Below, piece by piece: positions 2,488 to 63,835 of a stretch of DNA of 64,000 bases. The translations under genes were made by a program, and so were the position numbers. The notes below the pieces were generated by a model. The model made no database searches and was not told where the DNA came from. It saw nothing but the letters and a program-made list of their open reading frames with translations. Within the stretch, counting starts at the first letter, position 1, and each line of letters begins with the position of its first letter. The stretch is from Darksidea phi (lineage: Eukaryota > Ascomycota > Dothideomycetes > Pleosporales > Lentitheciaceae): NCBI GenBank assembly GCA_030770425.1, contig JASJFT010000002.1, positions 520,744-584,743 of the forward strand. The letters run 5' to 3'.

Positions 2488-3910
<1,423 letters not shown>

Positions 3911-11040: not shown

Positions 11041-12404
11041 CTACGCAAACGCTCCTACAATGGACATGCCGGCGGCGCCCATCAGAACGTAGCAGAAAGC
11101 TTGTGTCTTGTCTTTCTTAGTCATTGTGTGATTCGCCTCCTCGGACAAGAAGTCCTCGGCAAGCAAGTCGACGAGTGCGGCGTATATCAAAAGTCCTGAC
11201 GAGATGGCGTTGAAAACGCCAACCAGGATAAGACCAAAGGCGCTGTTGGGATCGTAGGAACCGCGAGTGAAGAGGCCGAGAGCCTGGCCGAAAGGAGCGG
11301 TAGTGCCGAAAGCCACGACGAGAGCCCACGGTTTCCAGCTGTTCTTTGGGTAGGGGACCGCGGCGATGCGGGAGCCTAGACCAAGACCCTCGAACATTTG
11401 ATGGAAAACGATGGCAATGAGCAGGATGATGAAGCCGTCGGCAGTGATGGAGATGGTCATTCCCACGAAGACGGAGTGGAATAGGATGCCACCCTCAATA
11501 AGGGTGATCTGCAGGGACTGCTTCTTCAATAGCATAGGGTCGACGGTCTGATTCTCAACGTCGTCCTCAAAGTACGACTGCTGTTGGTTGCGGCTCTCTG
11601 TCTGTACTGCGGGCTGGTGGTGGTGCTGGGAGATGGCGGGCATCACGCGGTTCAGTTGAGCCACCATTTCGTCACGTTGGCGAACATACTGCTCGTAGAA
11701 AACGATGAACCACGGCGGCATTTCCGACTTGACCTCAAGATCTTCGTGCTTCGGAAAAGGGAAGTTGTCGCCCGGGTACGTGTTCTCGACCCAGCCTCTC
11801 TTCTCTGATTGGTACGCCACGGTGGTCTGTGAGTCGTAGCTCTGCACGCGTCTAATGGGATTGTTGAAGGCGTCCTGGATGCCCGGTGGTGTTGGTCCCC
11901 CTGCGAATTCTTGACCAGTTGCGCTGCCGTGGCTATGTCCACCGGTCACTGAGTTGAGCCACATTTCCACCACGAAGAGAGCAAAGAGCGCGCCCATCAT
12001 GATAACACCGGGCATGGCAGGGTACTTGTCAGTGAAAAGTTCCGGGAGACATGGGTCGTTGAGCGATGCGAAGGCGGTGGGAAGAAGCTGACGCGGTTAG
12101 ATGATGAGCACAAACGCTGCAAGGGAAAAGCTTACATGCACAAAAGCTGTAGCAATCAGGACACCAGTACCAAAGTGTTTGCAAAAGAAGAAAATCGGCG
12201 GCGGGATCTTCATCCATTTGACCTTTTTCGCTACGACAGGGAAACCCGCACCACCAATGCTAGCGGCAAAGACAATAACTAAGACTATTAGCGCGAGTGG
12301 GCTGGCCTGGAGAAGGTGCACTCACACACTGCAGCTACGTGCAGAGGGAAATCATATGCGGCCCCGTCGGCATCACTGCCGCAAACGGGCTTTTCGTCGG
12401 CCAT
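11041..12404 (-). CDS. ZIP-family zinc/iron transporter
   Basis: The model is complement(11041..12087, 12136..12278, 12326..12404), 422 aa, with two short introns (48 and 47 bp). The short first exon encodes MADEKPVCGSDADGAAYDFP and joins in frame to VFIVFAASIGGAGFPVVAKK. The second junction restores HFGTGVLIATAFVHLLP, a ZIP hallmark. The central cytoplasmic loop is His-containing (GGHSHGS, SQHHHQ). The metal-path helices carry HSVFVGMTIS and HQMFEGLGLGSRIA. The protein ends in hydrophobic helices ending GMSIVGAFA, as plasma-membrane ZIPs do. It should import Zn(II), possibly Fe(II), into the cytosol. It is divergent from a CDF exporter across a 1.4-kb gap. Confidence 0.93.
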
Positions 12405-29196: not shown

Positions 29197-31036
29197 CTAC
29201 TTTCCCACGCAGAACCTAAGATGCAATCAAAGTCAGCGTCATCCCCGCGAGTTGCGAATACCACCATTAAAGTAGGTCGAGATTCTCTCAACGAGATGCG
29301 AGGTGCAAAGTTGGAATCGAATGACCCATCTGACTGAGACACTCCTGCAGCGCCTCAGATTAGGCGTCGTCCAATATAGCGGCGCAGTCGGGCGACCACC
29401 TGGCAAAAACGTGCAGAATCAAAGGACTGAAGGAAACGTACTTTTCAAACACAACTCCTAGCACCTCCTCCACGTCACCGCTTTCTCCGCGTCCGGTAAT
29501 CCTGGCAAGTGTTTCTGCGGCCAGGCGGAGGGACTCAGCGGCTACAACAACGTCAACCTCATTCGAGTCTTCAATGACGCCAAAGGTATCATCAACTTGA
29601 CGAGAGGGGCTTCGGGTGGCTCCCAAAAACGCATCAAGATGCGAGAGACACTCTGAGAGCAGCACACGCTGTCGTTCAGTTGCGCCCAATGATTCTTGCC
29701 AGATTGATGGGTCCGGTTCAGAGTCCGGTACCAGGGCAGTGGTCATGTCTCTGAAGGTTTGGAGGAGGCCGTCGAGGAAGGTCTTGATATTGCTATCTTT
29801 GCATGAGATGAAGAATATGCGCTCGGCAGGAATCGCTAGAACAGACTGCATCTTCTCCTTCCAGCTGTTCAGTGATGGGGTGGCACTGAGAACTTGATCG
29901 ATCTTGTTGATAGCGACAACGACGTTGATGCCTAACTGTACACATTGCTGTGCTGTTTCTGTGACTTCGGGATCCATCTCGGTTGTGACGTCCTGGACTA
30001 GGATGAGGACGTCTGACTCGAGGGCGCGTTGTTTTGCGCGCTTGATGCCTTCTTGCTCGACAGCGCCGACGACATCGGCGCCGACAATGCCAGCCTTACG
30101 CAAGCCAGCCATGTCTCCAATCTTGACAAGCCATCCTCCCAGATCCAAGCCGACTTCGACAACGTCTCTGGTGGTGCCCGCTTCCTGCGAAACGATGGCG
30201 GCGTCACGGCCGACGATGCGATTGAGGAGGCTGCTTTTCCCGGCATTAGGTGCACCAAGGAGTGCTACACTAATGCCGCTCCGCAGAAGCTCGCCTCGGA
30301 CTGCGTTGGCCATATGGGCGTCGATGTGAGAGCGTAGGTTCGCGACTTGGTCGGCGACAGATGCGCAAAGAACTGCCGGGGGCTGATCGAAGTGCTGGTC
30401 CTCGGAGAAGTCAATCAGGGCTTCCAGCTCGCCACGAGCTTGCAGCAGGAGGTGGCGCCAGTGCTCATATCGTACAGCGAGCGAGGACGTTGTACCGCGC
30501 ACGGAAAGTCTGCGCTGTTGCTCAGTGGTGGCAGCAAGCGTCTCGCCCAACGACTCGATCTGTGGCAGGTCCATCCGATTATTCGCAAAGGCGCGGCGGG
30601 TGAACTCGCCAGGCTCTGCGTATCGGAGCACGCCACACTGGGGGATGGCAGCCAGCACGGCGCGGACGATAGCTGGTCCACCGTGGACGTGGAGCTCCAG
30701 CACATCTTCACCCGTCACCGTGTTGGGAGCGGGGAAGTGCAGGACGAGGGCACCTGAATCGAGCAGCGTCGCGGGGGTCGGGCGGACATGCGGCGCATAC
30801 AGCTTGCGGAGGGCAGCGTAGCGGGGCTTTGGGAAGGCCGCGGCAGGACACAGGCCGTGGTAGACCTGTCGACACGCGGGGCCCGAGACGCGGATGACGG
30901 CGATGGCACCTTTGCCAGCAGCCGTGGAGAGGGCGTAGATGGTAGGCACATCTGCGTGCGGGAACGACGCATGGTGGACACGGCGATGACAGACAAGGGA
31001 TGCAGATGATCGCAGCGATGCGATGGTTGCTCTCAT
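29197..31036 (-). CDS. mss1: Mitochondrial tRNA-modifying GTPase MSS1 (MnmE family)
   Basis: MSS1 works with MTO1 to install the carboxymethylaminomethyl-type group on wobble uridines of mitochondrial tRNAs. The model is complement(29197..29215, 29442..31036), 537 aa. The N-terminus is Arg/Ser-rich and fits a mitochondrial presequence. The MnmE N-domain starts at TIYALSTAAGKGAIAVIRVSG. The G domain has G1 GAPNAGKSS (261-269), G2 EAGTTRD, G3 DMAG (308-311, usually DTAG), G4 NKID and G5 SCK. The long frame otherwise runs to 29360 without the family's C-terminal motif. A GTACGT donor at 29441 and a CTTAG acceptor at 29216 attach a 19-nt last exon that supplies exactly FCVGK-stop, the MnmE FCIGK motif with its conserved Cys. 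It shares a 169-bp divergent promoter with MAK16. Confidence 0.93.
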
Positions 31037-31205
31037 TCCGGAGCGGTGAGAGATGGGAGCGAGTCAATCCATCACATCAAATTGATCGGTTGCATGTAAT
31101 CTCTGCGCTAGTCTTCCTTCGTTATAGAATAGCTTGGCGTGCCAAGAGTTCGACTTGTTGGAATTTTTGGTCTCTTGCACACTACCGCCCCACACCACAA
31201 CCACC

Positions 31206-34543: not shown

Positions 34544-35977
34544 TTACTCAAGCCCAACGCTGATCGCAGTCAATGCCCAGTCCATAAAGCCCGCATTCGT
34601 GTCTAGAATATTTTGATTAAACTCGGAGAGGGTGGGATAGAAATTTGTCGAATACCCAAATTCCATGGTAAACCCATAAACCTTGTTCACTCCGCTCTTT
34701 GCCCAATACCTACTATACGCGTAGTCATCACTGGCGCCAGAGGTGGGATACAATCCCACGGCCTGGATAGAAGTGTAAGAGCGGCCGCCCACAGCCTTCA
34801 TAGCGGCCACAGCGGCGGCAGCGACTTTCCTGACAGCAGTCAGGTCAGCAGAGGGGATGTACTCTTTGTAAGCGGAGTCGCCGACGGGGCCGCGTTTACC
34901 ATCGTAGGCGGAATTGAGAAAGTTCATAGTGGTAGTGGTGGATTGGTCGTCATCATCACCCCAGCTGTAGAGCATGTCGCCCGCGGCAGAGTGAATGTCC
35001 ATAAACCAGCGGATCTTAGGAAAAGAATCGTAAACGGAAACATGATTTTTAGTCTCGGCTTCAGAGGCCGCCGCGGTTCCAGAAAAGGCCTCTGAGCTGG
35101 GCGACGTGGACGCTGGAGCCTCGGAGGGATCGAAATACTTCTTGAAGTTCCAGAGGAAGTCGAAGTTGCGGTTGATGTCTACGCCAATGGAGTTGCCGCT
35201 AGAACCGGACTTGGTGTTGCGATTTTTGCGCCAGAGGGAGCCAGAAGATTGGTCGTAGGTCACGCCGTCAGGGTTCACGAGAGGGAAGAAGACAATGCCA
35301 GCGCTGAGTACGTCCTTAACTTGGGCATTGGTATATGTTTTCTTGCCGTAGGTAAGTCCAGTGCCAGATTTGTTTGCGGCTAGAAGATCGGAGATCCAGT
35401 AGAGGAGGTTGTCCGGACCGCCTCGTTCTCGTGCATGCATGCCAGCGCTGAGATAGAGGTGGTATTTCGACCTGTCGGTTCCGGCGCCAACATAAGCGGC
35501 GGTTTGGGTTGCGCCGTTGAATGTCTTATATGGCAGTGCAACCGTAGAAACACCGTAGGCGCTACCGAGAGCCTTGATAGCAGAGCCGATCTCAGCAACG
35601 TTCAGAATGCTGCTGATGGTTGTGCCGGAAGCTTGCGTCCCCAGTCCAACGGGCGCAACAGTGCCAGACTTGAATCGGTCCCCAGTCCCAATAGGAGCAT
35701 TAGCCGCTCTCTTCACCATATCTCGGTAAATTGAGATCTCGAGCGTGAACTCGTACTCTTTGCTAATGTGGGCTATCTGCGCCTCGGTGAGTAGCGCATG
35801 GAGTCTGAATTGCCCATCTTCGGTGGGGTGAGCAATCGGTCTGCAGCCGAAATCATAGGTATCATTGCGCACAATGTCTGCGAAGTGCGCAGGTGTCGGT
35901 GCCTTGAAGTGGACAGGGAGAAGGTCGGCAAGGACAATGCTCTGGAAGATCAGAGCTGTGGCGAGAGAAGACTTCAT
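34544..35977 (-). CDS. Secreted zinc carboxypeptidase (peptidase M14)
   Basis: A 477-aa intronless protein. The start at 35977 is preferred because it opens directly into a signal peptide (MKSSLATALIFQSIVLA); an ATG 15 bases upstream would add MLCGI. After a propeptide-like segment comes an M14 domain with Zn ligands His181 and Glu184 in HARERGGPDN, His329 in MDIHSAAGD, substrate-binding VDINRNF, and catalytic Glu439 in TMEFGYS. All key residues are present, so an active extracellular metallocarboxypeptidase that trims C-terminal residues from peptides is expected. Confidence 0.92.
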   Translation of the reverse strand: MKSSLATALIFQSIVLADLLPVHFKAPTPAHFADIVRNDTYDFGCRPIAHPTEDGQFRLHALLTEAQIAHISKEYEFTLEISIYRDMVKRAANAPIGTGDRFKSGTVAPVGLGTQASGTTISSILNVAEIGSAIKALGSAYGVSTVALPYKTFNGATQTAAYVGAGTDRSKYHLYLSAGMHARERGGPDNLLYWISDLLAANKSGTGLTYGKKTYTNAQVKDVLSAGIVFFPLVNPDGVTYDQSSGSLWRKNRNTKSGSSGNSIGVDINRNFDFLWNFKKYFDPSEAPASTSPSSEAFSGTAAASEAETKNHVSVYDSFPKIRWFMDIHSAAGDMLYSWGDDDDQSTTTTMNFLNSAYDGKRGPVGDSAYKEYIPSADLTAVRKVAAAAVAAMKAVGGRSYTSIQAVGLYPTSGASDDYAYSRYWAKSGVNKVYGFTMEFGYSTNFYPTLSEFNQNILDTNAGFMDWALTAISVGLE

Positions 35978-37213
35978 GATGCCGCAAAGCAATGGAACGT
36001 GTCGTCCTGGAAAAATGGGCGGGGGGCATGGCCCTTTTTACATGAAGGCACCCCAGGCGCATTGCGATCATGCTCGTTTGGGTTGATTAGGGCCCGATGC
36101 ATCTCCGTCCACGCAGCCAGTGGCAGATCAGATGTTGCTTGCACGGAGCTATCGCCAGCCAATGAGAGGCTAGGGTCGTCGGCAATGCTCCCATCCCACC
36201 TGCCCGAAGCGGAATAAAGCTAGTCCGCCGTTGGCAGGCGCGGGCCATTGGTCTATCCGAGGCAACCTCCTTCTGTTGCGCCGTCTCCCCCGAGGCCTAT
36301 CTACATTATAATATGCTATCGCCGGAAACTCAATTTGCCACTTGCTGGACCTGGCCTGTTTTGGGCGCATGCCCCTGAATTTGTAGAATGATATGGAAGA
36401 CGCCCACCCAAGCTTGTTGAGGCAGCTGCACCGAATCCTCAACTTGCACTTTGAAGAGCCCTTTCTCACATCAGAAGCATCATGGGCGTGCACTATTAGC
36501 CTCCTTGACAGCTAACCCGTTAAAAAATGAAGTAATTGACTATAGAAGGGCCTATTTATTTATGAGTATATACATTACAGGAGGATCTTTTACACAGTAG
36601 AGACGCTAAAGCCGCACGTTATCCACACTAAAAATTGCATTGTATATATCCGTGGGCCAAAATCTCGACCGATGCCGATGAGTATGCTGTTGGACCCTCG
36701 CCGTAATTCGTCTCACGATGCAGCTCAACCTGAGCGATAAGTGAGATGTTGCATGCACATAGTAACATCGATTCGGCATCTCTCTCCTCTTGAAGCCTTG
36801 TCTTGTTGATTCTTTCTGAGGCACGAATCTAAGTTCTTGGCCTTGCGTGGGATCCAATATTACCCGGGCATGTTCGGAAGGGTTTCTCCACTAAGAGGGC
36901 AGCCGTCGAATTGGTGATGAGTCGCGCTGTCTTACTTCCGTTTTCTAGCGCATGGATTGAAGGACGGAAGCATGGCATAAAATGCTATCTATAATACGGT
37001 CTAGTCATGCAAGCATGAGGCGTACCAAGTGAGTGGATTTGGCCCCGCCTTGAGTGGTACCTGCCCCATTGCTTACCAGTGCTATACCGCTACTACCTTA
37101 ACGTAGGGCTTAATTGAATCCTACGCTTATCTCGACAGCCTTCGCCATTCTCATATTTAAGACAATTTCAAGTTGGCAACCGTCTACATACTCTCATTCA
37201 CTATAATTCCGAT
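35978..37213. other. Intergenic
   Basis: 1.2 kb upstream of the carboxypeptidase. No gene was recognised. Confidence 0.45.
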
Positions 37214-43319: not shown

Positions 43320-44126
43320 ATGGCGCTCAAGACGTATCTCCTCGCTCCCAACTTCACTTTCGAGCCGGACGGCCCTATTCGCATAGGCCGCATCATCGCC
43401 GATCCTTTTCGCCCTACCAAGCCTCTCCACGTTCCTGCCACAGAGCCGGCCACGGCGACGCATACCGATTTTGAGAACTCATTCTCACACCAGAACAGCG
43501 TGGCATTGCATGGCAGCATATGGGCGCAGTTCCTCCAGTCAGCGAGTGCGAATATAGGTGCGAGCATCAGCCGAGATGTCCTGGAGCAGTACACTATGGA
43601 CAGTCTGGAGACCATACGCATGAAAGAAGATCCCACAGACTCGGAGGCGGCCGAGCTGGCTAGGATACCTGCGGTTCAAACAGCAATCAAGGCTGGGGTG
43701 TTCGGAGATGCGCCTGTGTACATGATCACTGGGATCAAGATTGCGAAGGGATTCAGGCTGGACAACCAGACATCCCGCAAGCATGAAGCGCAAGCCGGTT
43801 TCAATGTCCCCGTCACTGAGGAAATAGGTGCCGGCGCCGAGGCTAGTGTTGCGCGTACAAAAGCGACTGGAGCTGCCTCTCGATCAGGCAGTGACATTAT
43901 TTTCGCGTATCAGGTCCATATCATTGCGAAGAAGAAATGGTGGAGCAGAAAGATATCTGCTGACGTGTTTGACTCGCCTGCTGCATTCCTCGACAAGGCT
44001 AAACCGGTCGATGAAGTGGATGATGTGTATGTGAAGACTGCGACGTCGAAACAATTAAAGGAGATAGCGGAGGAGTACGAAGAAGATAATGTGAAGACAG
44101 TTGAAGTACCAGAAGAACGGACCTAG
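43320..44126 (+). CDS. Fungal gasdermin (RCD-1/HET-Q1 family)
   Basis: A 268-aa protein of the fungal gasdermin family, pore-forming executors of heterokaryon-incompatibility cell death (rcd-1 in Neurospora, het-Q1 in Podospora). Family marks: the start MALKTYLLAPNFTFEPDGPI, then GRIIADPFRP, YTMDSLETIRM, the conserved PVYMITGIKIAKGF, a Gly/Ala-rich beta-hairpin segment, and SDIIFAYQVHIIAKK. The C-terminal 45 residues after AAFLDKAKP are acidic and predicted flexible. In HET-Q1 a C-terminal part of this kind is cut off by the protease HET-Q2 to activate the pore. The ATG at 43320 is chosen because the family starts there; the frame is open for 26 further codons upstream. The gene is intact and converges on an S8 protease gene 975 bp away. 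Confidence 0.85.
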   Translation: MALKTYLLAPNFTFEPDGPIRIGRIIADPFRPTKPLHVPATEPATATHTDFENSFSHQNSVALHGSIWAQFLQSASANIGASISRDVLEQYTMDSLETIRMKEDPTDSEAAELARIPAVQTAIKAGVFGDAPVYMITGIKIAKGFRLDNQTSRKHEAQAGFNVPVTEEIGAGAEASVARTKATGAASRSGSDIIFAYQVHIIAKKKWWSRKISADVFDSPAAFLDKAKPVDEVDDVYVKTATSKQLKEIAEEYEEDNVKTVEVPEERT

Positions 44127-45100
44127 TCCCTTTAGATATATTATCAAGGGGCGCTAGAGAAGAATGTGGTTCCCATGACGTAGCATGTTTGACGCTATAC
44201 GCGGTTGATACTTCTTCAAGTCTCAACGACGCTTACTCTCCTTCACAAACGCCATCTTGCGGTGTCATCCATATCTCACTTTCGTTTGAGCCATGAGGCT
44301 ATTCTTCTAGAGGGGCGGCTCTCAAAATGGTGTGGTTGTCACGAGACCGTTACTTGCGTTTCGTACTTGCCAGCCCCGGCGCTCCACGGCTGTTTCTTCG
44401 ATGCTCTACTGTTCCTCTGGATGCATAGTCGCGACCCGTTTCTGGACTCATACGCATAATTGCGGCCTGAAAGCCTTAGAGCACCCTTTTGGTGCATCTC
44501 CGAGGTTGTATCTCGTTACGATGTGATTCGAACGCTTTTGCAGTCGCACTCACCACAGTTACGTGGACAACTGTCCAAGCTTACGCGAATGCAACAGTTT
44601 AACCACGCGCTATAGAGCTTATGTAAACTTTGTTCGACCTGACTAAATTTGCCATGGGAGTAGAGTACGTTTACTGAATTACGATTCATATTCGTATGCG
44701 CAGACTGGCGACGTTGCTTAATTGTAGTGCCAGTGAGAATAGACTGTGAGAGTGTTTTCGGGACAAGGAAGGCGGGTCGACGCTGCCTGGTCAGCGAGCC
44801 ATTGGCGGACGACGGCGGAGCTGAAGGTCAGGGAGGAAGTGTGCAGGCACCAGATGCTGCATGCGGACCGAGAATGGAGAGTAGAGGGGCGATTGCCATT
44901 GGCGTGTATAAATCATTGCTGGCCACAGTGCATCTATCATGACGACGACGGGCGATGGAGGAGATGGAGTGAAAGGGAAGTGTGTGGGAATAGCTGAGGA
45001 CTGGATTGTTTGCTATTTGAGAATGCTGCGTCGGCGTGCAGCCATTATCGCTGGCCACAGGGTATCGGTCGTTCGAAGCCCCTCAACCCTCTTCAGCGGC
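44127..45100. other. Convergent spacer between gasdermin and protease genes
   Basis: 974 bp. Short frames only, and no domain recognised. Confidence 0.5.
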
Positions 45101-47939
45101 TTAATGATAGTTTTGCTTTGCTTGCTGAGCAGCTTCCACTAACATCGCATCCCGAGAATCATTGTCGGCGCTGCTGATGAAGTCGTGGGGGGTAAGATAC
45201 CTTTGCTTGGAGCGCATTTGCCGTGATGCCCTCCACAATATGCGCCGCATACCTTGTTCTCTCCAAAGCCACTGAAGTAGGTCTCGCTTCGACGCAAGTT
45301 GATCATGCAGGCGTAATTGCGCATAGCCAAGGATCGTTGCTGCTATCCCAGCAGCGATTGGTGTAGCGATCGAAGTTCCAGTTTTGAGCACGTCAGCCTG
45401 GCCACGGGCAAGTCCTGCACCTGGAACATCTTTTCCGAGTGTACCAAATACATCCGCACCACCGAAGTCCGGAGGAGGATTAAGGCCTAAGAAGTGCCCG
45501 CTGTGGTCTGTCGCGCGAATGGAGAAGACGTTTGGATGTTGAGCTGGGAACATTTCGCTTTGGTTGCCGCCGTCGTTCGCGGCAGCGGCAAAGAAGGTGA
45601 TGCGCTGACTTCGTATCTTTAAAGCGTGTGAAATCGCATCGCTGATTACATATTCACCTTTCACCGTTGGTTCCTCTGGAAAACCAAAGGACATAGATAT
45701 GATATCTGCCTCAACTTCTTTCTCTGCGGCCCATCGGATCGCCCTTGCTATATTGTTGCTTGATCTGACCAGGTCTTCTGTGTTTCGGGCTACGCGTGCG
45801 ACAAAGAAATCGGCGACAGGAGCCATCTTCATTGCAAGTGAAAGCACATATGTGCCATGACCGTCGTAGTCTACCGCTTCCGCGTGCCCTTCCTCAGTGA
45901 AATCCTTCCACCGCTTGAGACGGTTGAGGCGCGGTGGTGTGTCGAAGAAAGTGGTTTGTTGGTTGTAACCTGTATCAAGTACCGCAATTCGGATTCTTCT
46001 AGTTTTGGACTTCGCCCTGTATTCCTTGCCAAGGTCTATGCCGCGCCACGGAGACATGGCCCAATTCATCCATGTCTCAGGACAAGTCGGCAAGCTGACA
46101 GTCTATCAGTGAGGGACGAGCGTGATTAGGACACTAGATCTCTTACAGTCGTGATGTTGTCATGTCTAGAAAGGCGGCCTTACTACCTTGGTCTTTGTGC
46201 TCCACCGTGTAATACTCCTGTGACGCACTTTGGTCTGTCGACTTCATGATAGCTGCATCTTTGCAAAGTTGCTCCAAAGAGTAGACAACGTTCTGGTAGA
46301 GCCTTGTACGGCGGATATCGGCTTGTGACGTCCATGTTGATAAATCGGACGAAGAGACGTGAAAGTTTTTGGGATCGAGGCAGTATTGTGCAGCAGCTCG
46401 GTATGTATCTGCTATCTCTCGATTTCGAAAATCTAGCTCCGGCCAATTGTCGCTTTTAGATATCATCATGCATATCTTCCACTGTGTATTCATGTCGACG
46501 TCAGCTGTCGAAATGGGTTGTTCATCAGCGTCAGGTCGTGATGCTTTGCGACCTATTTCCACTAACAGGACACCCAGAGCAAGAACCCTCGGATATCGAA
46601 ACCAAACATTGCGGGCCGTGGAGTGCTCTGCTACCTCGGCCTGAGCACCCTCTACCCAGTGCAGCGCGAACAAGGGATCCTGAAGATCAATCCTCCGACG
46701 CCAAGACCTATCGTAGTATTTCTTCTCCATAAATTGCACTGACTCGGTCGTCCAGGCTTCGCTCATAAACTTAGAGTTGTAATACCGCCAAACCGACTTG
46801 GCGAGAATATAACCAAGCAGTATTCTGTCTTTGGAAGAAATTCTGCCTTCCTCTAGCAGCGTTGATAGAGGGAGACTCGGAGCGGATGTTAGCACATACT
46901 CTGCATCGTCTGGGTCCGGCTGATGAAAATTGTAAAGGTTGTCATTGACGATCTTCAAGCGAATCCATACGGGTCCGACTTCTTCCACGAAAAGGCTGCA
47001 CAAGCTCTGGATCATCGTACTGTTCGATTCATCATCTTCATCTTCGTTTGTAGACGTAGGTCCAAGCGATACCTCATTCGCGAAGCCGACAGTCTTCCTG
47101 GCTTTCTTGATTCTGCGAAACGTTAGAAAAGGAGTTATCCCGGAGTAAGGGAAGATAGTTTGTACTTAGAAACATGAAATCTTGTTTGAAACCACTTCCT
47201 CTCGACGTAAAAGCGTACATCAAAAAAGGCTCCTCCGGCATGATTCCGCACCTTCTCCGACAGTCTAAGCCATGCTTGGTGCCGTTGACCCACCGAAGGT
47301 TGCGAGGTGTTGACGGAACAGGTACAGCGGGAGTGATGTTGTAAGGTGGTATACAACGTTTTATTGAGGTCGCTATCGTACTCCATTGGAGGTTCGGCAT
47401 TTTCAACTATGTGCCGGTGTTGGAGAGGTTCTGTCGAACTAAGTGCGCTCAATTTGCTCAGCAGTGTTGTCACCTCGTCACCGCCTGTTTTCGCGAACTT
47501 GGTGAAGGCAGCTTCTAACGTAGCCCGATGATTTTTGGAAGGGTTCTTGGCCATTTGCAGCGCGGGATACAAAGCGATGTCTTGCGCAGTGTTAGCTCCC
47601 TTGAGTGGCCACTATACACACCTCCGCTGTCAGTCTGAAGGGTCTTGCGCTCGTCGAGTTCCGCATACGAACCGTACAACTCTTTTCCAATTGAAAGAGC
47701 AGCTCTGAAAGCTTGGCCGATATGCTGTTCAATTCATATCCGTCCATTTTTTGTAATGTTTGCGATACAGATGCAAGCGCTCCGGAGAGCTTGCCAAGGT
47801 TTTGAAGCATCAGGGATGAAGTTGTTGTAGGCATGGCACTTCCGCGCGCCACCGTTGCTGCGTAGGCAGCGGCTATAGCTACTCGAGCAAGCTGACTCGT
47901 GGCATCTACCGCAAGTTCTCGCAAAGCCTTGTCATCCAT
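45101..47939 (-). CDS. DUF7580-like/subtilisin-like (S8) protease, HET-Q2-type partner
   Basis: The model is complement(45101..46094, 46147..47112, 47166..47580, 47622..47724, 47769..47939), 882 aa. Introns of 44, 41, 53 and 52 bp restore ALASHIGQAFRAAL, QTDSGDIALYP, HVSKIKKARKTVGF and TSRLLPTCPETW. Residues 1-220 are helical with LRELAVDATSQLARVA. About 240-545 match the fungal DUF7580 pattern, including DRILLGYILAKSVWRYYNS and FRYPRVLALGVLLVEIGR. From about 560 comes a complete subtilase: Asp592 (VLDTGYN), His631 (DGHGTY), Asn725 (AANDGGN) and Ser793 (TGTSIATP). There is no signal peptide, so a cytosolic protease is expected. By analogy with HET-Q2, its substrate would be the adjacent gasdermin, and the N-terminal part would sense or restrain. 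Confidence 0.87.
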
Positions 47940-48188
47940 ACTGATGACACGCTGCTAAGCGGGAGGCTAGTAGAGCAAAGAATGGGTTGTGCCGATTGCG
48001 ATCGAGACGTTGAGATGGTAGACGTGGGACGATTGATGCGGTTGTAGGGTGGGGAAGGGGAGAACGAAGTTGCCGATCAGATGCGCCAAGCCGTAGGGGC
48101 TCAGCTTCATCCAAATCTTGGCGGAGCTGACAACCTCATTTCTTCAGCCTTGCTTCAATAGAGTATTGATAAAGAACGTTTCCACATT
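47940..48188. promoter_or_regulatory. Bidirectional promoter of protease and ankyrin genes
   Basis: Only 249 bp separate the two divergent start codons, so expression of the two genes is probably linked. Confidence 0.5.
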
Positions 48189-51100
48189 ATGCAGACACAA
48201 GAGAGCGACAATGAGAGCCTGTGGCCAATCTCTCGTGCCACTATCAAGTTGCGCCGTAGTCTAGAGGATTGCCTCTTAGTCCCTGCTCTCTCTAACCCAA
48301 AGGATGACTGGGTTGGAAACCGTCTAACGGACTTCAATCTTTGGGCCTCCGGGGTCGGTGCATTAGCAGGAAAGTCCGCATCGCTTGACCAGCGCCTTAC
48401 AGACCAACCAGATGCTCAGGCTGTCATACTGGGTCTCCTTACTGTGACGACCAATCTAGTAGCCCTGTGCGCGCAGGTCGGTATGTATTCTAGACTTGTA
48501 CCTATAAAGTGCACGAACTCATCACTCCTGAGGTTCCGATACGGATGCGACTACGTCCTCCCTAGAACGTGCTGGTGGCAGTGGCATCGCCCGTCCGCAG
48601 CTTCATTCGTCTACCGAAGCTAGGTCAGCCAGCTCTCCGCCTGACGATGCTGGCTCATTCATCTCTTCACCTGATGGACCCGATGTCTCGCCCTTAAGTC
48701 TAGCGAAGGGAGATGTTGAGACATTTCTAGACCAAATCATCGCCGTCGGAATGCATATCCGATCAGCTGGTGCTGGATCACGTTCACTCAAAGCGGATAG
48801 CCACTTCACCTGGAAAGACTACGAGACTCTTTGCAAAAAGGAAACCATACCATCGACTCGCGTGAATGCGGAAGATTTACAAGAGCTGAGGTCATACTTG
48901 CTCTTTCTGTTGTTCGCCGAGCCATCCTACCAGGCCAACAACGACCCCGAGGAAACACTACAAAGAAAGAGTAAGAGCCCTGGTACTAACCCCTATCTGG
49001 CTTCTCATGGTTTTGATCCGGAATCTGAGTTTGAAATCCTGCCTAGCGATGTGCGGAAGATTTTAGATCGATTGGTATTTACGAACCTGCGCCGGCGCAA
49101 CCGATTCTGGTATGCCAAACAGCACGCTAAGAGACTGGAAGATGATGCTGAGATCTGTTCTGCATTTTCCGAGCCGCCAGACGCGACTGAGGGACGAGAC
49201 AACAATGCAAGAGTCGTGCAGACAGAAGAGCAGTCGCACCAGGTCAGTGACAGCCAAGGGAAAGCGCGTAGAGAAGGGACAAGCACAGTGCCATCTGTGT
49301 ACAAGGTTGATGTGGCGAAGTTGAGTTCACCAGCGCCTTCAACGCCAGCCACGAGCCGAATGTCAGTCTCGCTTAAGAAGTCCGGCTGGCCACGTCCGCC
49401 GAAGTTGATTTTGGACCGGAAAACGTTCCAATGCCCATGCTGTTTCATCACATTGTCTCCTTTTGGTAAAGACCACCAACGTTGGAGGCATGTATGTTCA
49501 CTCCTTGAGATCGGTTATGGTTCCTGACAGATGCATACAGGCAGCACTTGTCGGCGGACATCTACCCCTACACCTGCATTTTTCCCGATTGCTCAATGAG
49601 CGCACCTCTGTTCGTCACGCGAACGGAATGGAAGACACACCTCCGTTCGCACAGATCGTCCAATTATTGGGAGTGCTTTGTGTGCACAAATGCCGACGAA
49701 TCGACCACGTTCTCTCGTTCTGACGATTTTCTTGCTCATGTTCATGAACAGCACGGCGATTCTATACCGAGAGAAGAAGCTGTTCAATGGTTGGAAGTAT
49801 GCGTTCGCTCGGATCCGTTATCCGTTGACGTGTGTCCACTGTGCGTTAGCAAACCTCAACCAACCGCTATCGACCCCACATCGCTGTTGGAGCACATTGG
49901 CGACCACATGCATGACTTTTCACTGCAATCTCTTCCGTGGATGGACTTACCCGAGGGGTTGATTAAGCCGCCACTTCAAGGAGGCAAAATAGCACACATC
50001 CAGGGATGGCTGCTGGCTCTCCCTTCAACAAACCCCATGTATGGTTCCGAAGAGGACTCTCCAAGACGCCCGAGTCAACATGAGTTGATGACGGATTCAA
50101 CTGAGAACAAGATTCCTCTAACGAAGGACAACCTCGCCGCTCACACCGCCTCTTTGACTGATTTTGACCTTTTAGGTTCAGATCAAGCCCAAAGTGCCAT
50201 GGAAGATCAGCGTATGCACTATTTCGCAGAGAGCAGCGGCGCTTCGTCTCAGGCTCAACTGGATATCGGCTCAGCTTGGAATGACTACCAGGCAACTATA
50301 ATCTCAAACGACAAAAACTCAGAGGATCCCATGATGCGGACGGATTCTGATGAAGATTTGAATACTGGAGTGGTCACAAGCGCTATTGAAGGGAACAATG
50401 ACACATTGGTAGCGGTAAAAAGCGAACACATCTCTCCAGAGCAGATCTACCCTGAAGATACAATAACAAATATATGGAATTCGGGAGACCAGACATCATT
50501 GTTACGGGCAGCGGAAAAAGGACTCGAAGATGTTTTATCGCTGCTACTAACAAGATATGATATTGAGGATAACTCGAAGGATGAAGATGGGCGGACGGCG
50601 TTATCGCACGCGATAAAGGGGGAGCATGAGGCGGTCGTTAGAATGCTACTAGCTCGAAGCGATGTTAACGCCGATCTGAAGGATAATGGCGGACGGACAT
50701 TGCTGTCATGGGCGGTGCAGATGGGGCACGATGTTATCGTCAAACTGCTGCTGAGGTCTGGCAGAGTAGACACCGACTCGGAGGATAAAAACCGTCGGAC
50801 CCCGTTGTCATGGGCTGCTGAGAATGGGCGCGAGGCCGTTATGCGGCTGCTTCTTGACAGGGGCGCGAACACCGAGGCTAAGGATGACGTCGGCCGGACG
50901 CCACTGTCGTGGGCCGCCCTGAACGGGCATACAGCCACCACCCAGCTGCTACTCGACAAGGGCGCTAATATCGAGCAGAAAGATGAGCGTGGTTGGACGC
51001 CGCTGTCGTGGGCCGCCTGGAACGGGCATACAGCCACCACCCAACTGCTACTCGAGCAGAGCGCTGATATCGAGTCGAAAGATGAGACTAGTCAGACGCC

Positions 51101-51530
51101 GCTATCGTTAGCCGCCCAGCGTGGTAATAAGGCTATCGTCCAACTGCTACTTGAGAAGGGCGCTAATATCGAGTCGGAAGATGAGGGTGGTCGGACGCCG
51201 CTGTCGTGGGCCGCCCTGAACGGGCATACAGCCACCACCCAGCTGCTACTCGAGAAGGGCGCTAATATTGAGTCGAAAGATGAGGGTGGTCTGACGCCGC
51301 TGTCGTGGGCCGCCTGGAACGGGCATAAGGCTATCGTCCAACTGCTGCTCGAGAAGGGCACTAATATCGAGTCGGAAGATGAGGGTGGTCGGACGCCGCT
51401 GTCGTTAGCCGCCCAGTACGACGATAAGGCTATCGTCCAACTGCTGCTCGAGAAGGGCGCTAATATCGAGTCGAAAGATAAGGGTGGCCGGACGATCGCT
51501 TCGAAAGTCACGCGATCCGCTATAGATTAG
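48189..51530 (+). CDS. C2H2 zinc-finger/ankyrin protein with near-identical repeats
   Basis: The model is join(48189..48480, 48533..49491, 49545..51530), 1078 aa. The joints give AQVGSDTDATTSS and RWRHHLSADIYPYTC. The N-terminal 95 residues hold a fungal domain often placed before such zinc fingers (DDWVGNRLTDFNLWASGVGA, LTDQPDAQAVILGLL). Residues about 405-560 carry irregular C2H2-like fingers (CPCC...H, YTCIFPDC...H, WECFVC...H, DVCPLC...H). Residues about 727-1070 are roughly ten 33-aa ankyrin repeats. The last six or so are almost identical in DNA (TPLSWAALNGHTATTQLLLE type). Such high internal conservation is seen in fungal allorecognition and NLR-type repeat proteins. It is divergent from the S8 protease. 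A sensor or scaffold role is inferred only. Confidence 0.8.
50893..51490 (+). repeat. 99-bp near-identical ankyrin-coding tandem repeats
   Basis: About six 99-bp units share long identical blocks (for example GAGAAGGGCGCTAATATCGA and CGGACGCCGCTGTCGTGGGC), with a few clustered amino-acid differences (WAALNGH, WAAWNGH, LAAQRGN, LAAQYDD). Upstream ankyrin units (50490-50890) are much more diverged. Confidence 0.9.
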
Positions 51531-58381: not shown

Positions 58382-60239
58382 TTACTTGAAGTGCGGGGCG
58401 TTGAGGAACAAGGCCATGGTCACCCCACCGATGGTACCCGCAACGGGGATAGTCATGATCCAGGAGAAGACGAGGAGGCCAACTCGCTGCCAGTTGACAG
58501 CCCTGAAGGTACCATTGCAGAGACCCACGCCGACAGTGGCACCAGTGATGCACATAGACGTCGAAACGGGAAGCGAGTATTGCGAAAAGACCAAGACAGT
58601 GACGGCAGCGCCCATCTCCATAGAGGACCCTAGATAACGATTAGCAAATGTGCTGGACATGGAGCAGTGTGTCAAACGTACCTCGGGAAGGCGAGTGGTA
58701 AGTAATCTTGTTACCCATAACCTTCATAATGTTGTAACCATAGGTGATCAGACCAAGAGAGATGGTGAGTGAGAGCACGGCGAGTTGCCAGATGGGGACG
58801 CTGGCCTTGGACTGAAGCGCGTTACCGGTTCTCCAGGCACCGTAGATGACAGCCCAGGGACCAACCGAGTTACCGATATCATTGGCACCGTGAGCGAACG
58901 AGGCGGTACAGGCAGTCAAGACCTGGATAAACGAGTAGGTGAATTCGACCTCGTTGGGGTACTTTTCGGCGTTTGCGTAGACGCGCTCCATACGTGCACC
59001 CTCCGGAGTACCGTGAATACCGCTCTGAGCGGCGTGGATGTCGTAATGGAGACCATAAAGAGCGCCAACAACAATCATAGCAGGAATGCGCTTGATAAGA
59101 ATGACCATGTTCTTCTTCTCGTAAATCTCGCCGTCACCCATTGGGTTGTTGTGTAGGGTGCGCATAGCCCAGCCAAGCGGCCCGCGCTTCAACCTAAGCT
59201 TCGCGTGGAACTTCTCCCTTCCCTGCGCGATCAGCTCCTTGTAGGTGAGCTGTTTCTGCTCGGCGCGGACGGCAGCCTTCTCGCGGTCGGCCGAGGTAAT
59301 GGCATCCTCAGCACCCTTCACCGGGAGGTCAGAGCCGCTGAAGGAAGGCGAGCGTGTTTCAATCTCGGGAAGATCATCCTCTTGGACAACAGCGTAGTTG
59401 GGAACAACGATTTGGCCGTCGGCGGGCGGAGCGCGCTTAAAGAGGAGAGGTCCCTTGAGGAAGTCCCACCACTTGAGAGTGTGGTCCTTGTTGATGACCT
59501 TGCAGTAGATGAAGGGCACGAAGAAGAGAGCGGAGAGGATGCAGACACCGCTGCCGGTACCCATGGTGACAGCCGCGACATACCAGGCGGGCTTCTTGTT
59601 CAGGCCGAGGTTGGGAGAGCCCTTGTAGACGATGGAGAGGGTACAGATGGTACCGGCGATGAGGAAGAAGAAGGGCGCGGTGAAGACGGCCACCTTGGTG
59701 GGGTTGCGGCGCATGTGCACGACCACCTTGATGAGCATGAAGATGGAGGCACCAAAGCCAGCGGCGATGGCGGGCGCCATGCCTAGACCAGCGAAGATGG
59801 CACCCAGTCCCTTGCCCTTGTTCCACCCCCACTGGACCTCGCGGACTCCAACGGTTGCGACGCCGACACCAGCAATGGACGAGATCAGAGAATAGGTCGA
59901 GGAAACGTGAGCCGAGTGGCGCGTGCACCACATGACCCAGATGGAAGCACCGGCGAGGGCGCAGGTGAAGGCCAGCATCTGAACACTGGCGTCGCCCTTG
60001 AAAGAGGCCGGTGGGATGATGCCATTCTTGATCGTCTCGGCCGTTCGCGCACCGACGGTGATGGCTCCCACCATTTCGAAGATGGTTCCGAACACCATGG
60101 CCTGCCTGTACGAGACGGAGCGGGAGGAGACACTGGTGGCCCAGGCGTTGGCGACATCGTTGGCACCGTTGTTGTAGGCATCGAGCATGGCAAAGAAGGT
60201 GCCAATGACGAAGATGTAGGTGTAGTCGGTGAGCACCAT
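58382..60239 (-). CDS. pho89: PHO89-type sodium/phosphate symporter
   Basis: High-affinity Na+/phosphate co-transporter of the PiT family, in the plasma membrane. The model is complement(58382..58629, 58682..60239), 601 aa. The 52-bp intron joins SPSRG to SSMEMGAAVTVL. The start at MVLTDYTYIF has a good context and matches family starts; an ATG 57 bases upstream is open but unlikely. Both inverted PiT signatures are present: GANDVANAW at residues 25-33 and AHGANDIGNSVGP in the C-terminal half. About ten to twelve hydrophobic segments flank a polar central loop of some 150 residues. Confidence 0.96.
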
Positions 60240-61904
60240 GGCTGCGGTGGCTCGCTCTCGCGGCTGGGACTGAGGATGAAGGAGAGACGGCGACAACGGA
60301 GCTGCCGGACAAAGAGGGGCACAGGGGTGCGGTGCGGTTTAAATGGAGGTGCAGGCTGATGCAGGAGAAGACCGCAGCATGGGGCCATTGCAGTGTTTAT
60401 ACTCGAAGGACGAAGTCGCAGCGTCTCCCGCCGCACGGCATGGCCGAGGCGCGGGCCAATGAAGAACCCGGTAGGCAACATGTGCAGACGGGCAGAGGCA
60501 GCATGTCACCACGGTACGGGGAGTGGGCCTCTGCTCGCTCGAGGCATTTCCAGCGCAGCCCACTTGCAGCCGTAACTCGAGTGAAGTCCAACACCCCAGC
60601 CCTCGCCGGCCTGGGCAGAAGGCTGGGCGCAGGCTGGGCGGAAATCTTGGCCGCTGGGCACGTCGAAGCGAGACGCCAATCATAATGCTCCCTGCGCGCA
60701 CGTTGTCTGCCCCAGGACGTTCGGTGTGATGCGCTCCGGGGGCGGCGCCCAGGGCAGAGCTTCGAGAACAGCGTGCCAGCATACGGGGTACGCGAGACGG
60801 CGCTCCACCATGGCAGAGTTTGCAGGAGGCGCTGCTGACTGGGGACTGCTGGGCACTGCTGACACTGCTGGGGACGCTGGACACTGCTGGGGACGCTGGA
60901 CACTGCTGGGGACGCTGGACGCTGCTGGAGACGCTGGACGCTGCTGGAGAAGGCCTAGCGGACGGGCGTGGCCTGGTAATCGGATCGACTCCCCTTGCGT
61001 GCCTGCTCCTCTCCTAGAATGCTATCCTGGCCCACCGACGCCATCGTGCGACTATGCCTAGACTGCTCATTTCCTGCCCTTTGCAATGCGGATCGCAGCC
61101 GCTGGTGCCGTCACTGTCTTCTTGGACTTGCCCAAAAGCGACACACACGAACACGCTCAATATCCCGCTACTGCAGCCGTCCTGTGCACAGCCTGCAGGC
61201 GCCAGACGCCATACGCAGGGAGCCATTCTTCCTTGGTGACCGGTGACCGCGATGTCGTGAGACATGTACCCCACGTGTACGTGGCCTAGACCGTGCTCTC
61301 AGTGCCGGAGGGGGAAGTTGGAAGCGCCTGTGCCGATTCGATATTGTTCCGAATGCGAGCCTGTTGGGGGCAGGTGTACAGAGCCTGAAGCGGCGACGTC
61401 GAGATATGCTTCATATACTCCTGTGACCCAAATCCCCCAGATGGAGGCCTGGCCATGCTCTGGGCGATCGGAGCTTGACCATCTTGGCCCTGGAGACGTG
61501 AGGTTCAGTTAAGCTCGTGAGATGGGTTTGCAGCCGTTCGGCGTGCATTTGGCCTCAGGGCTGGGTTCAACGCTGAGAAACACGGCAGACCGCCAGGAAG
61601 CTTGTAGGGACTCAGGGTTCGATAGGGCTGAAGTGTTTAAAGTGGTGCATGTCGCCATGTGGCATTTGAACAGCTCTATCTACGAATGGTTGCTGGTGCA
61701 TCAGTACCTGCGCCTGGGGTTGCAGCGCAGTCACGTGCCTATTTGGGGTCAGCCAACAGTCATGCCATGCCGTGTCGGACTGCGACTCATTACGCGCACC
61801 ACCTGGGAGTGGCTCCTTTCCACGTTTACTTGAGGCCATCGCAGGAATTGATCTCGCTCATTGCCATCTGCCGTCTCAGACGTCCGGATTGTTGGTAGTT
61901 TCGT
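60240..61904. other. Gene-poor region with minisatellite
   Basis: 1.7 kb between PHO89 and CWC21. It presumably includes the PHO89 promoter. Besides the minisatellite listed separately, no credible gene was found. Confidence 0.4.
60858..60950 (+). repeat. 19-bp minisatellite
   Basis: Five copies of GCTGGACACTGCTGGGGAC or close variants in tandem. Confidence 0.85.
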
Positions 61905-62498: not shown

Positions 62499-62734
62499 GG
62501 TGGGTGGGATGGTGAGTGGCAGAACGGACCGTGGTCATGGTAGCGATGATGCTGCAAATGCGGAGTTGTGTCGGAGGTGGGCGGCCCGAGCTTTTGCCTG
62601 CCCCGCGCTCTCCAACGAAATCTGGATCGCAATGAAGACTCATCCGTCACCACCATGGGCTCATATCCTCGCCACACCGCGCACTCCGCATCTGCCAACC
62701 CTCTGTTCGCATTCCTTCTGCTACCGCACCCACC

Positions 62735-63835
62735 ATGAGCACCCGTCTTCCCTTTCCGCCCGTCACCAGACAGCACATCTTGAACTGCTCCTACCACAGC
62801 TGGCATCCAAGGTATCGCGCAGTCACGCCCAAGGCGCGGCTCATCCCACTTCCCGATGCATTTCTCGCCTATCTGCGTGCCGACGGCATCATACTCCCAC
62901 CCGAAGACGGAGACAACACCACCTGGTCCGATTCGGACAGCGGCATTTTCTCCGGCGCCGACAATGAAGCCGACGAGGATGCTGGCGCCGACTACGACCC
63001 TTCAGCCGAGTGGAGGAGCACGCACGAAACCATCGAGAATGTCATAGAAGAACTGGGTGGGACGGTCGCGCCGAAGCTGAACTGGTCCGCCCCCAAGGAT
63101 GCGACGTGGATTGCTGCGACGAACAGCATGGAGTGCCGGACGCCCAACGACATCTACCTACTTCTCAAATCCAGCGACTTTGTCACGCACGACCTCCAGC
63201 ACGCCTTTGACGACACGGCCGACGACGAGGACGCAGCGAGCGCACATGTCTCCATTCCATACCACCTTGTGCTGCGCAAGTGGATCACGCTCAACCCTTC
63301 GGTCGAGTTCCGCTGCTTTGTGCGCGACCGCAAGCTAATTGCCATCTGTCAACGCGATCTCAACCACTTTAGCTTCCTCTTTGGGATGCAGGACAGGCTC
63401 CGTCAGACGATGCAGGAGTTTTTCGACATCCGACTACGCGACACGTTCCCAGACCCGAACTTCACGTTTGATGTCTACATACCGCCACCACATGACCGCG
63501 TCTGGGTGGTGGACTTTAACCCTTGGGCACAGAGAACCGACCCGCTACTGTTTAGCTGGCTCGAGCTTCTGACACTGCCAGAGCCTGAGATACCTGAACC
63601 AGCGACAGGCGAGGACGACGTCGTTGAGCTGTGGACACCAGAATTTCGTCTTGTGAGGCGAGACGATCCCGAAGCATATGGGTTCACCACTCCGCAGTAT
63701 AGCGCGCACAAGCTGCCGAAGGATGTGGTGGACGCCAGCCGAGGCGGAGAGGGTAACCTGAGGGAATTTGCACTGCAGTGGCAGGAAGCACAGAAGCAGG
63801 CAGAGCAGCAGGGGCAGGACAGTGAGGATGAGTAG
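62735..63835 (+). CDS. cdc123: eIF2 assembly factor CDC123
   Basis: A 366-aa intronless protein of the D123 family, an ATP-grasp-like chaperone that joins eIF2 gamma to alpha in the cytosol. Marks: the N-terminal [18 protein letters not shown]-like [34 protein letters not shown], and [20 protein letters not shown] carrying the metal-binding DFNP. Two acidic stretches lie at residues about 65-95 and at the C-terminus. CACCATGAG is the start context. Confidence 0.96.

Follow-up and report, generated by a model that had tools for sequence, protein, structure and literature searches.

A gasdermin, a DUF7580-subtilase protease and a C2H2-ankyrin protein encoded at a putative regulated-cell-death locus of Darksidea phi

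Three neighbouring genes at the locus

In this study, we characterized a 64,000-nt stretch of DNA from the fungus Darksidea phi (assembly GCA_030770425.1, contig JASJFT010000002.1, 520,744 to 584,743 of the forward strand), hereafter the window. It carries, side by side, a gasdermin gene, a gene coding for a subtilase of the S8 family joined to a DUF7580 domain, and a gene coding for a C2H2-ankyrin protein (Table 1). Our results indicate that these genes probably constitute a three-gene module for regulated cell death. An initial annotation of the sequence had proposed a likely cell-death module, which our data support. The gasdermin, the cytosolic-type subtilase with a full Asp-His-Asn-Ser set and the tail-to-tail orientation of the two genes were likewise confirmed by homology, structure prediction, Pfam and residue conservation, as detailed below. 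That annotation does not mention the third gene, whose orientation is divergent relative to the protease gene.

The gasdermin frame comprises 268 codons without an internal stop, and its product shares 66% identity with the best relative. The predicted structure of the protein has the gasdermin fold, and RCD-1 is the closest solved structure both in fold and in sequence (8jyz_A, expectation value (E) 2.7e-7). To describe the tail, we used an alignment of the window protein with 60 of 70 matches (61 rows); the ten omitted matches are mostly short or partial, except that P0059 and P0064 are full length. In the tail, 58 of the 61 rows have Leu at position 224 and 38 have Phe at position 223. In the structural model, residues 225-240 have low confidence and a helix is placed at 243-252. 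Among the 19 nearest relatives (P0001-P0019), 18 end in a terminal Cx[C/S][I/V/L/F] segment, a pattern found in 36 of the 61 rows overall.

The protease gene comprises four minus-strand exons that encode a protein of 890 amino acids. Several splice pairs were available for its first intron, and we selected the one that yields the CTWP stretch of the homologues. Pfam places DUF7580 (PF24476) in exon 3 (E 1.5e-16; 61.4 bits against a curated cut-off of 27) and Peptidase_S8 in exon 4 (E 4.3e-16). The homologue search scored 7984 candidates sharing most words and gave 42 matches, of which 35 contain both PF24476 and PF00082. In an alignment of 19 of these matches with the window protein (20 rows; a further alignment took 34 of the 42), Asp600, His639 and Asn733 are retained in every row and Ser801 in 19, the remaining row being gapped. 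On the basis of sequence relatives and domain order, and not of a signal-peptide scan, we discarded an ordinary secreted fungal subtilase: DUF7580 precedes the S8 domain, whose nearest solved relatives by sequence are intracellular subtilisins (7xr8, E 1e-21). An NLR-type protease was also ruled out, because no NACHT or NB-ARC match was returned by Pfam for the reading frames submitted from the protease and C2H2 genes.

The predicted structure of DUF7580 matches the C-lobe of protein kinases, with entries for the IRAK3 pseudokinase and RIPK3 among the fold matches. The HRD and DFG motifs are absent from the matching places in all 20 aligned sequences, the placement of the motifs being read from the alignment. 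DUF7580 is thus predicted to be a pseudokinase-like C-lobe; we did not find it named in the literature searched. Elsewhere in the genome, the DUF7580 genes of loci L010 and L012 (contigs C135 and C48) start with a different, hydrophobic N-terminus of the MSG[FI]E type, for which a Pfam search gave no match. It may resemble HeLo-like domains. Judging from these N-termini, the data suggest that DUF7580 is combined with various outputs.

The third gene encodes a protein of 1067 amino acids with an N-terminal region, several C2H2-like fingers recognised by eye and ankyrin repeats. The final six ankyrin units form a 99-bp tandem array with 75-92% DNA identity between units, which points to recent duplication. 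Moreover, the repeat part differs among relatives: it is ankyrin in the window protein, TPR in Trichoglossum (P0113) and of neither recognised kind in Trichoderma chlorosporum. Promoter and terminator patterns in 47900..48250 were uninformative, the consensus being bacterial and unsuited to a fungus.

Recurrence of the gene pairs in this genome and in other fungi

The stop codons of the gasdermin and protease genes lie 974 bp apart, well inside the 10 kb within which Q2-L (HET-Q2-like) proteases are sought. It has been reported that ~80% of fungal gasdermin genes are found near protease genes (PMC12881547, PMC10989679). Eight named fungi appear in both our gasdermin and our protease match lists. 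Same-contig calls in other fungi rest on equal listed contig sizes, with one contig listed per row, and the sizes are equal in five of the eight: Massariosphaeria (1652558), Mariannaea (2552786), T. chlorosporum (1241771), Plenodomus (718911, with consecutive tags 467122 and 467121) and Trichoderma citrinoviride (1701151, gasdermin partial). We also considered whether P0075, a Trichoglossum gene model of 888 amino acids that joins DUF7580, S8 and gasdermin, is a true fusion. Its gasdermin part keeps its own start Met behind a short linker. We therefore consider it more likely that two adjacent genes were merged in the model, and counted it as evidence of adjacency only.

Within the D. phi genome, five single-protein queries revealed five gasdermin loci, on contigs C112 (the window locus), C468, C251, C81 and C28, and four of them adjoin a protease gene. 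On C468, the gasdermin gene is convergent with an S8 gene, and the part before S8 has a patatin-like look without Pfam support. On C251, a strongly diverged gasdermin (profile E 1.4e-4) is convergent with a DUF7580-S8 gene. At L069 (C81:44700-54600), the gasdermin gene and a TPR-CHAT gene (CHAT E 5e-32) are arranged divergently, so that this genome has gasdermin-protease clusters of two types. The copy at L068 (C28:54500-64400) is broken by several stops; no S8 match was found on its contig, CHAT genes not having been searched genome-wide.

A further linkage connects DUF7580 to the C2H2 family. The genome contains 24 DUF7580 matches at 23 loci, two adjacent ones on C223 (608652 and 608987) having been merged. 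With the C2H2 finger region as query we obtained 20 matches at E <= 0.01; exon 2 of the C2H2 gene gave two other matches only. A C2H2-family gene lies within ~3.2 kb at 14 of the 23 DUF7580 loci, including all of the 13 best-scoring ones, and the two genes are divergent in all 14 cases. By chance, a C2H2 match within 5 kb would be expected at ~0.4% per DUF7580 locus. The pairing was seen at the window and on contigs C474, C412, C476, C159, C84, C251, C35, C135, C48 and C223. The relatives of the window C2H2 gene on C251 (E 1e-18 and 1e-8) and C223 (6e-6) are each divergent from a DUF7580-S8 gene. Overall, the paralogous C2H2 proteins of the genome are 25-38% identical.

The C2H2 homologue search in other fungi scored the 7993 candidates with most words in common. 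Six of its matches carry an organism name, and four of these organisms (Rhypophila, T. chlorosporum, Chaetomium sp. and Trichoglossum) are also among the protease matches. In Rhypophila, the C2H2 gene (tag 014485) and the DUF7580-S8 gene (tag 014486) are consecutive on an 11.5-kb contig (P0118/P0101). In T. chlorosporum, C2H2, protease and gasdermin (P0114/P0079/P0022) lie on equal-sized contigs, as do C2H2 and DUF7580 (P0117/P0109) in Chaetomium sp. Hence, the repeated divergent linkage of C2H2 and DUF7580 genes in this genome, together with their linkage in three other fungi, points to a functional unit that may comprise three genes, including a candidate sensor.

Table 1. Features of the gasdermin, protease and C2H2-ankyrin genes, in positions of the window.
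Feature	Position	Strand	Basis or remark
Gasdermin gene, single exon, 268 amino acids	43320..44126	+	Homology, predicted fold
Gasdermin C-terminal tail, residues 219-268, mostly low model confidence	43974..44123	+	Model, alignment
AAFL motif, residues 221-224, candidate cleavage point	43980..43991	+	Best conserved tail element
Protease exon 4	45101..46094	-	
Peptidase_S8 domain	45323..45997	-	Within exon 4
S8 codon, Ser801	45371-45373	-	From gene model
S8 codon, Asn733	45575-45577	-	From gene model
S8 codon, His639	45857-45859	-	From gene model
S8 codon, Asp600	45974-45976	-	From gene model
Protease intron 3, 52 nt	46095..46146	-	
Protease exon 3	46147..47112	-	
DUF7580 match, predicted pseudokinase-like C-lobe	46260..47033	-	Within exon 3
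Protease intron 2, 53 nt	47113..47165	-	
Protease exon 2	47166..47611	-	
Protease intron 1, 61 nt	47612..47672	-	CTWP stretch in homologues
Protease exon 1, no Pfam family above cut-off	47673..47939	-	
Shared divergent start region, 249 bp between protease and C2H2 gene start codons	47940..48188		
C2H2-ankyrin exon 1	48189..48480	+	
C2H2-ankyrin exon 2	48566..49491	+	
C2H2-ankyrin exon 3, coding for a zinc-finger-like region followed by ankyrin repeats	49545..51530	+	
Tandem array of ankyrin repeats, 6.6 copies with a period of 99 bp	50846..51494	+	

By Pfam, the genes flanking the locus within the window are ordinary. They code for a glyoxalase-like protein (2491-3624, minus strand), a ZIP zinc transporter (11044-12096, minus), an MnmE-type GTPase (29363-31063, minus) and an M14 carboxypeptidase (34547-36037, minus) on one side, and for a PHO4 phosphate transporter (58644-60338, minus) and D123 (62636-63832, plus) on the far side. 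A tRNA scan found none.

A candidate activation pathway and its alternatives

On the basis of the gene models, their homologues, the predicted folds, the conserved catalytic residues and the recurrent linkages described above, we infer the following pathway. The gasdermin would be the executioner, consisting of a pore-forming core (residues 1 to ~218) and a short tail. The DUF7580-S8 protein would be a latent cytosolic activator, whose pseudokinase-like module holds or positions the subtilase. Upon a trigger, the subtilase would cut the gasdermin tail and release the pore-forming part, in the way that HET-Q2 acts on HET-Q1. Upstream, the C2H2-ankyrin protein would act as the likely sensor or partner, binding something and then releasing or building the active DUF7580-S8 protein. 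We propose a sensor role for this protein because its repeats are recently duplicated and vary among relatives, and because these relatives are linked to DUF7580 genes with or without a protease. Regarding the cut itself, HET-Q1 is cleaved at a Phe, F238 (PMC12881547, PMC10989679), and for this reason we chose AAF/L as the candidate site. The tail would plausibly be cut there, near residue 223.

The tail is one of the two main doubts about this pathway. The initial annotation regarded the acidic tail as a possible inhibitory piece. A tail does exist, with 45 residues past F223 of the AAFL motif, but the protein stops short of the Cx[C/S][I/V/L/F] segment with which all but one of its 19 nearest relatives end. 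This absence weakens a simple account of the acidic tail as inhibitor, and autoinhibition may differ or be gone. A tail shorter than that of close relatives would also suit a gasdermin that behaves like RCD-1, its best solved relative, for which cleavage is not the means of control (PMC12881547); the gasdermin would then be triggered by a different allele instead of being restrained by its tail, and the protease would have another job. We consider this quite unlikely, as the residues after the AAFL Phe are still in place and allelic activation leaves a protease pairing that recurs across genera unexplained. Loss of the tail end, together with the several stops of the C28 gasdermin copy in the same genome, could otherwise be read as decay of the locus, the gasdermin being dead or being tolerated only beside a silent protease. 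This also seems rather unlikely in view of the open 268-codon frame, its 66% identity to the best relative, and a protease gene that has a consistent exon-intron structure and still encodes the catalytic residues.

The second main doubt concerns the C2H2 gene, which may be part of this pathway or a general partner of DUF7580. No S8 match adjoins 11 of the 14 C2H2/DUF7580 pairs, which would fit a C2H2 gene acting with DUF7580 in general. On this basis, it is possible, though we lean against it, that the functional unit is only the gasdermin-protease pair, with the C2H2-ankyrin gene regulating transcription locally, at the start region common to it and the protease gene, or else being carried along as a passenger in an old DUF7580/C2H2 block duplicated many times. 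Several CxxC/HxxxH zinc-finger-like motifs, seen by eye, and a divergent arrangement that fits co-expression are in line with a regulator. However, the final ankyrin units with their 75-92% DNA identity and the TPR-bearing P0113 resemble a ligand-binding protein more. As for a passenger, it should scatter, whereas these pairs are old, judging from the 25-38% identity of their C2H2 proteins, and yet remain adjacent and divergent, and linkage is seen in other genera too.

Other observations weigh against a three-gene module. Nine of the 23 DUF7580 loci lack a C2H2 match, although a diverged one may be present there, and six of the 20 C2H2 matches have no DUF7580 neighbour. At L055 (C223:140000-149900), where a DUF7580-S8 gene stands beside a divergent C2H2 gene, no gasdermin was detected in the 9.9 kb examined there. 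In Geoglossum simile, C2H2 (contig 214761) and gasdermin (202278) lie on different contigs of one assembly, which speaks against a universal trio; neither Geoglossum nor Immersiella has a match among the protease homologues listed. The C2H2 and protease matches of Trichoglossum come from different assemblies. Regarding the gasdermin-protease pair, three of the eight fungi, namely Fusarium falciforme, Cylindrodendrum hubeiense and Trichoderma afarasin, have unequal contig sizes for the two genes, which is no proof either way. Finally, the fold match of DUF7580 is weak by Foldseek alone (best E 0.01).

On balance, we still favour the three-gene module. In addition, we tentatively propose, as a possibility short of a probability, that C2H2-repeat and DUF7580 pseudokinase proteins form a modular receptor-transducer pair, amplified in this genome to at least 14 divergent pairs, with interchangeable outputs, the output here being a subtilase that fires a gasdermin. 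The gasdermin-protease pair alone is an already known kind of cluster, and the linked third gene is what is new; in the literature searched, we found no paper on fungal gasdermin clusters with C2H2 or zinc finger genes. The stimuli acting on the sensors that activate fungal gasdermins are described as a major open question, and the control of the proteases is still to be worked out (PMC12881547). In this sense, a conserved, linked gene whose repeat domain changes among relatives offers a specific candidate for what is missing upstream. The pseudokinase-like DUF7580 hints at how the protease might be kept off. If true, the receptor-transducer reading would add to the gasdermin pathways of fungi a third component that is separate and resembles a receptor. 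Divergent C2H2/DUF7580 pairs would also offer a simple marker for further candidate loci of fungal death or immunity.

Comparison with known systems

Two-gene fGSDM/Q2-L clusters of ascomycetes were reportedly described by Clave et al. in 2022 (PMC12881547, PMC10989679, PMC10197012). Our locus shares with such clusters the proximity of a gasdermin gene to a gene of the S8 or CHAT protease type, a multidomain protease and a short tail after the core. It differs in the divergent C2H2-ankyrin gene, recurrently tied to DUF7580, and in the truncated gasdermin tail. Kinase-like domains fused to proteases, and clusters of two or three genes, are also mentioned (PMC12881547); at our locus the domain is named, as DUF7580, and predicted to be a pseudokinase-like C-lobe, which may or may not be one of those kinase-like domains. 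The initial annotation had considered the pair undescribed for this species. DUF7580 is indeed unnamed in the literature searched, but the pair itself recurs elsewhere, including five other fungi in which the two genes have equal contig sizes.

With HET-Q1/HET-Q2 of Podospora anserina, the locus has in common a gasdermin, a subtilase and a proteolytic activation that we infer here. The protease is longer, with 890 amino acids against 388 in HET-Q2 (PMC10989679). The earlier use of HET-Q1/HET-Q2 as a model of a nearby pair does not hold, because these are idiomorphs, that is, alternative genes of one locus (PMC12881547), whereas gasdermin and protease stand side by side on C112 in one genome. 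We therefore rejected an idiomorph allorecognition system of that type; both genes being on one haplotype, the locus is a co-resident fGSDM/Q2-like cluster. RCD-1 of Neurospora crassa is the closest solved structure to the window gasdermin, but it fires when two alleles meet, without cleavage (PMC12881547). By analogy, MLKL and the fungal HELL-pseudokinase proteins also couple a pseudokinase-like module to a death output. Unlike in these proteins, the pseudokinase-like module of D. phi is fused to a subtilase, and the putative pore former is a separate gasdermin.

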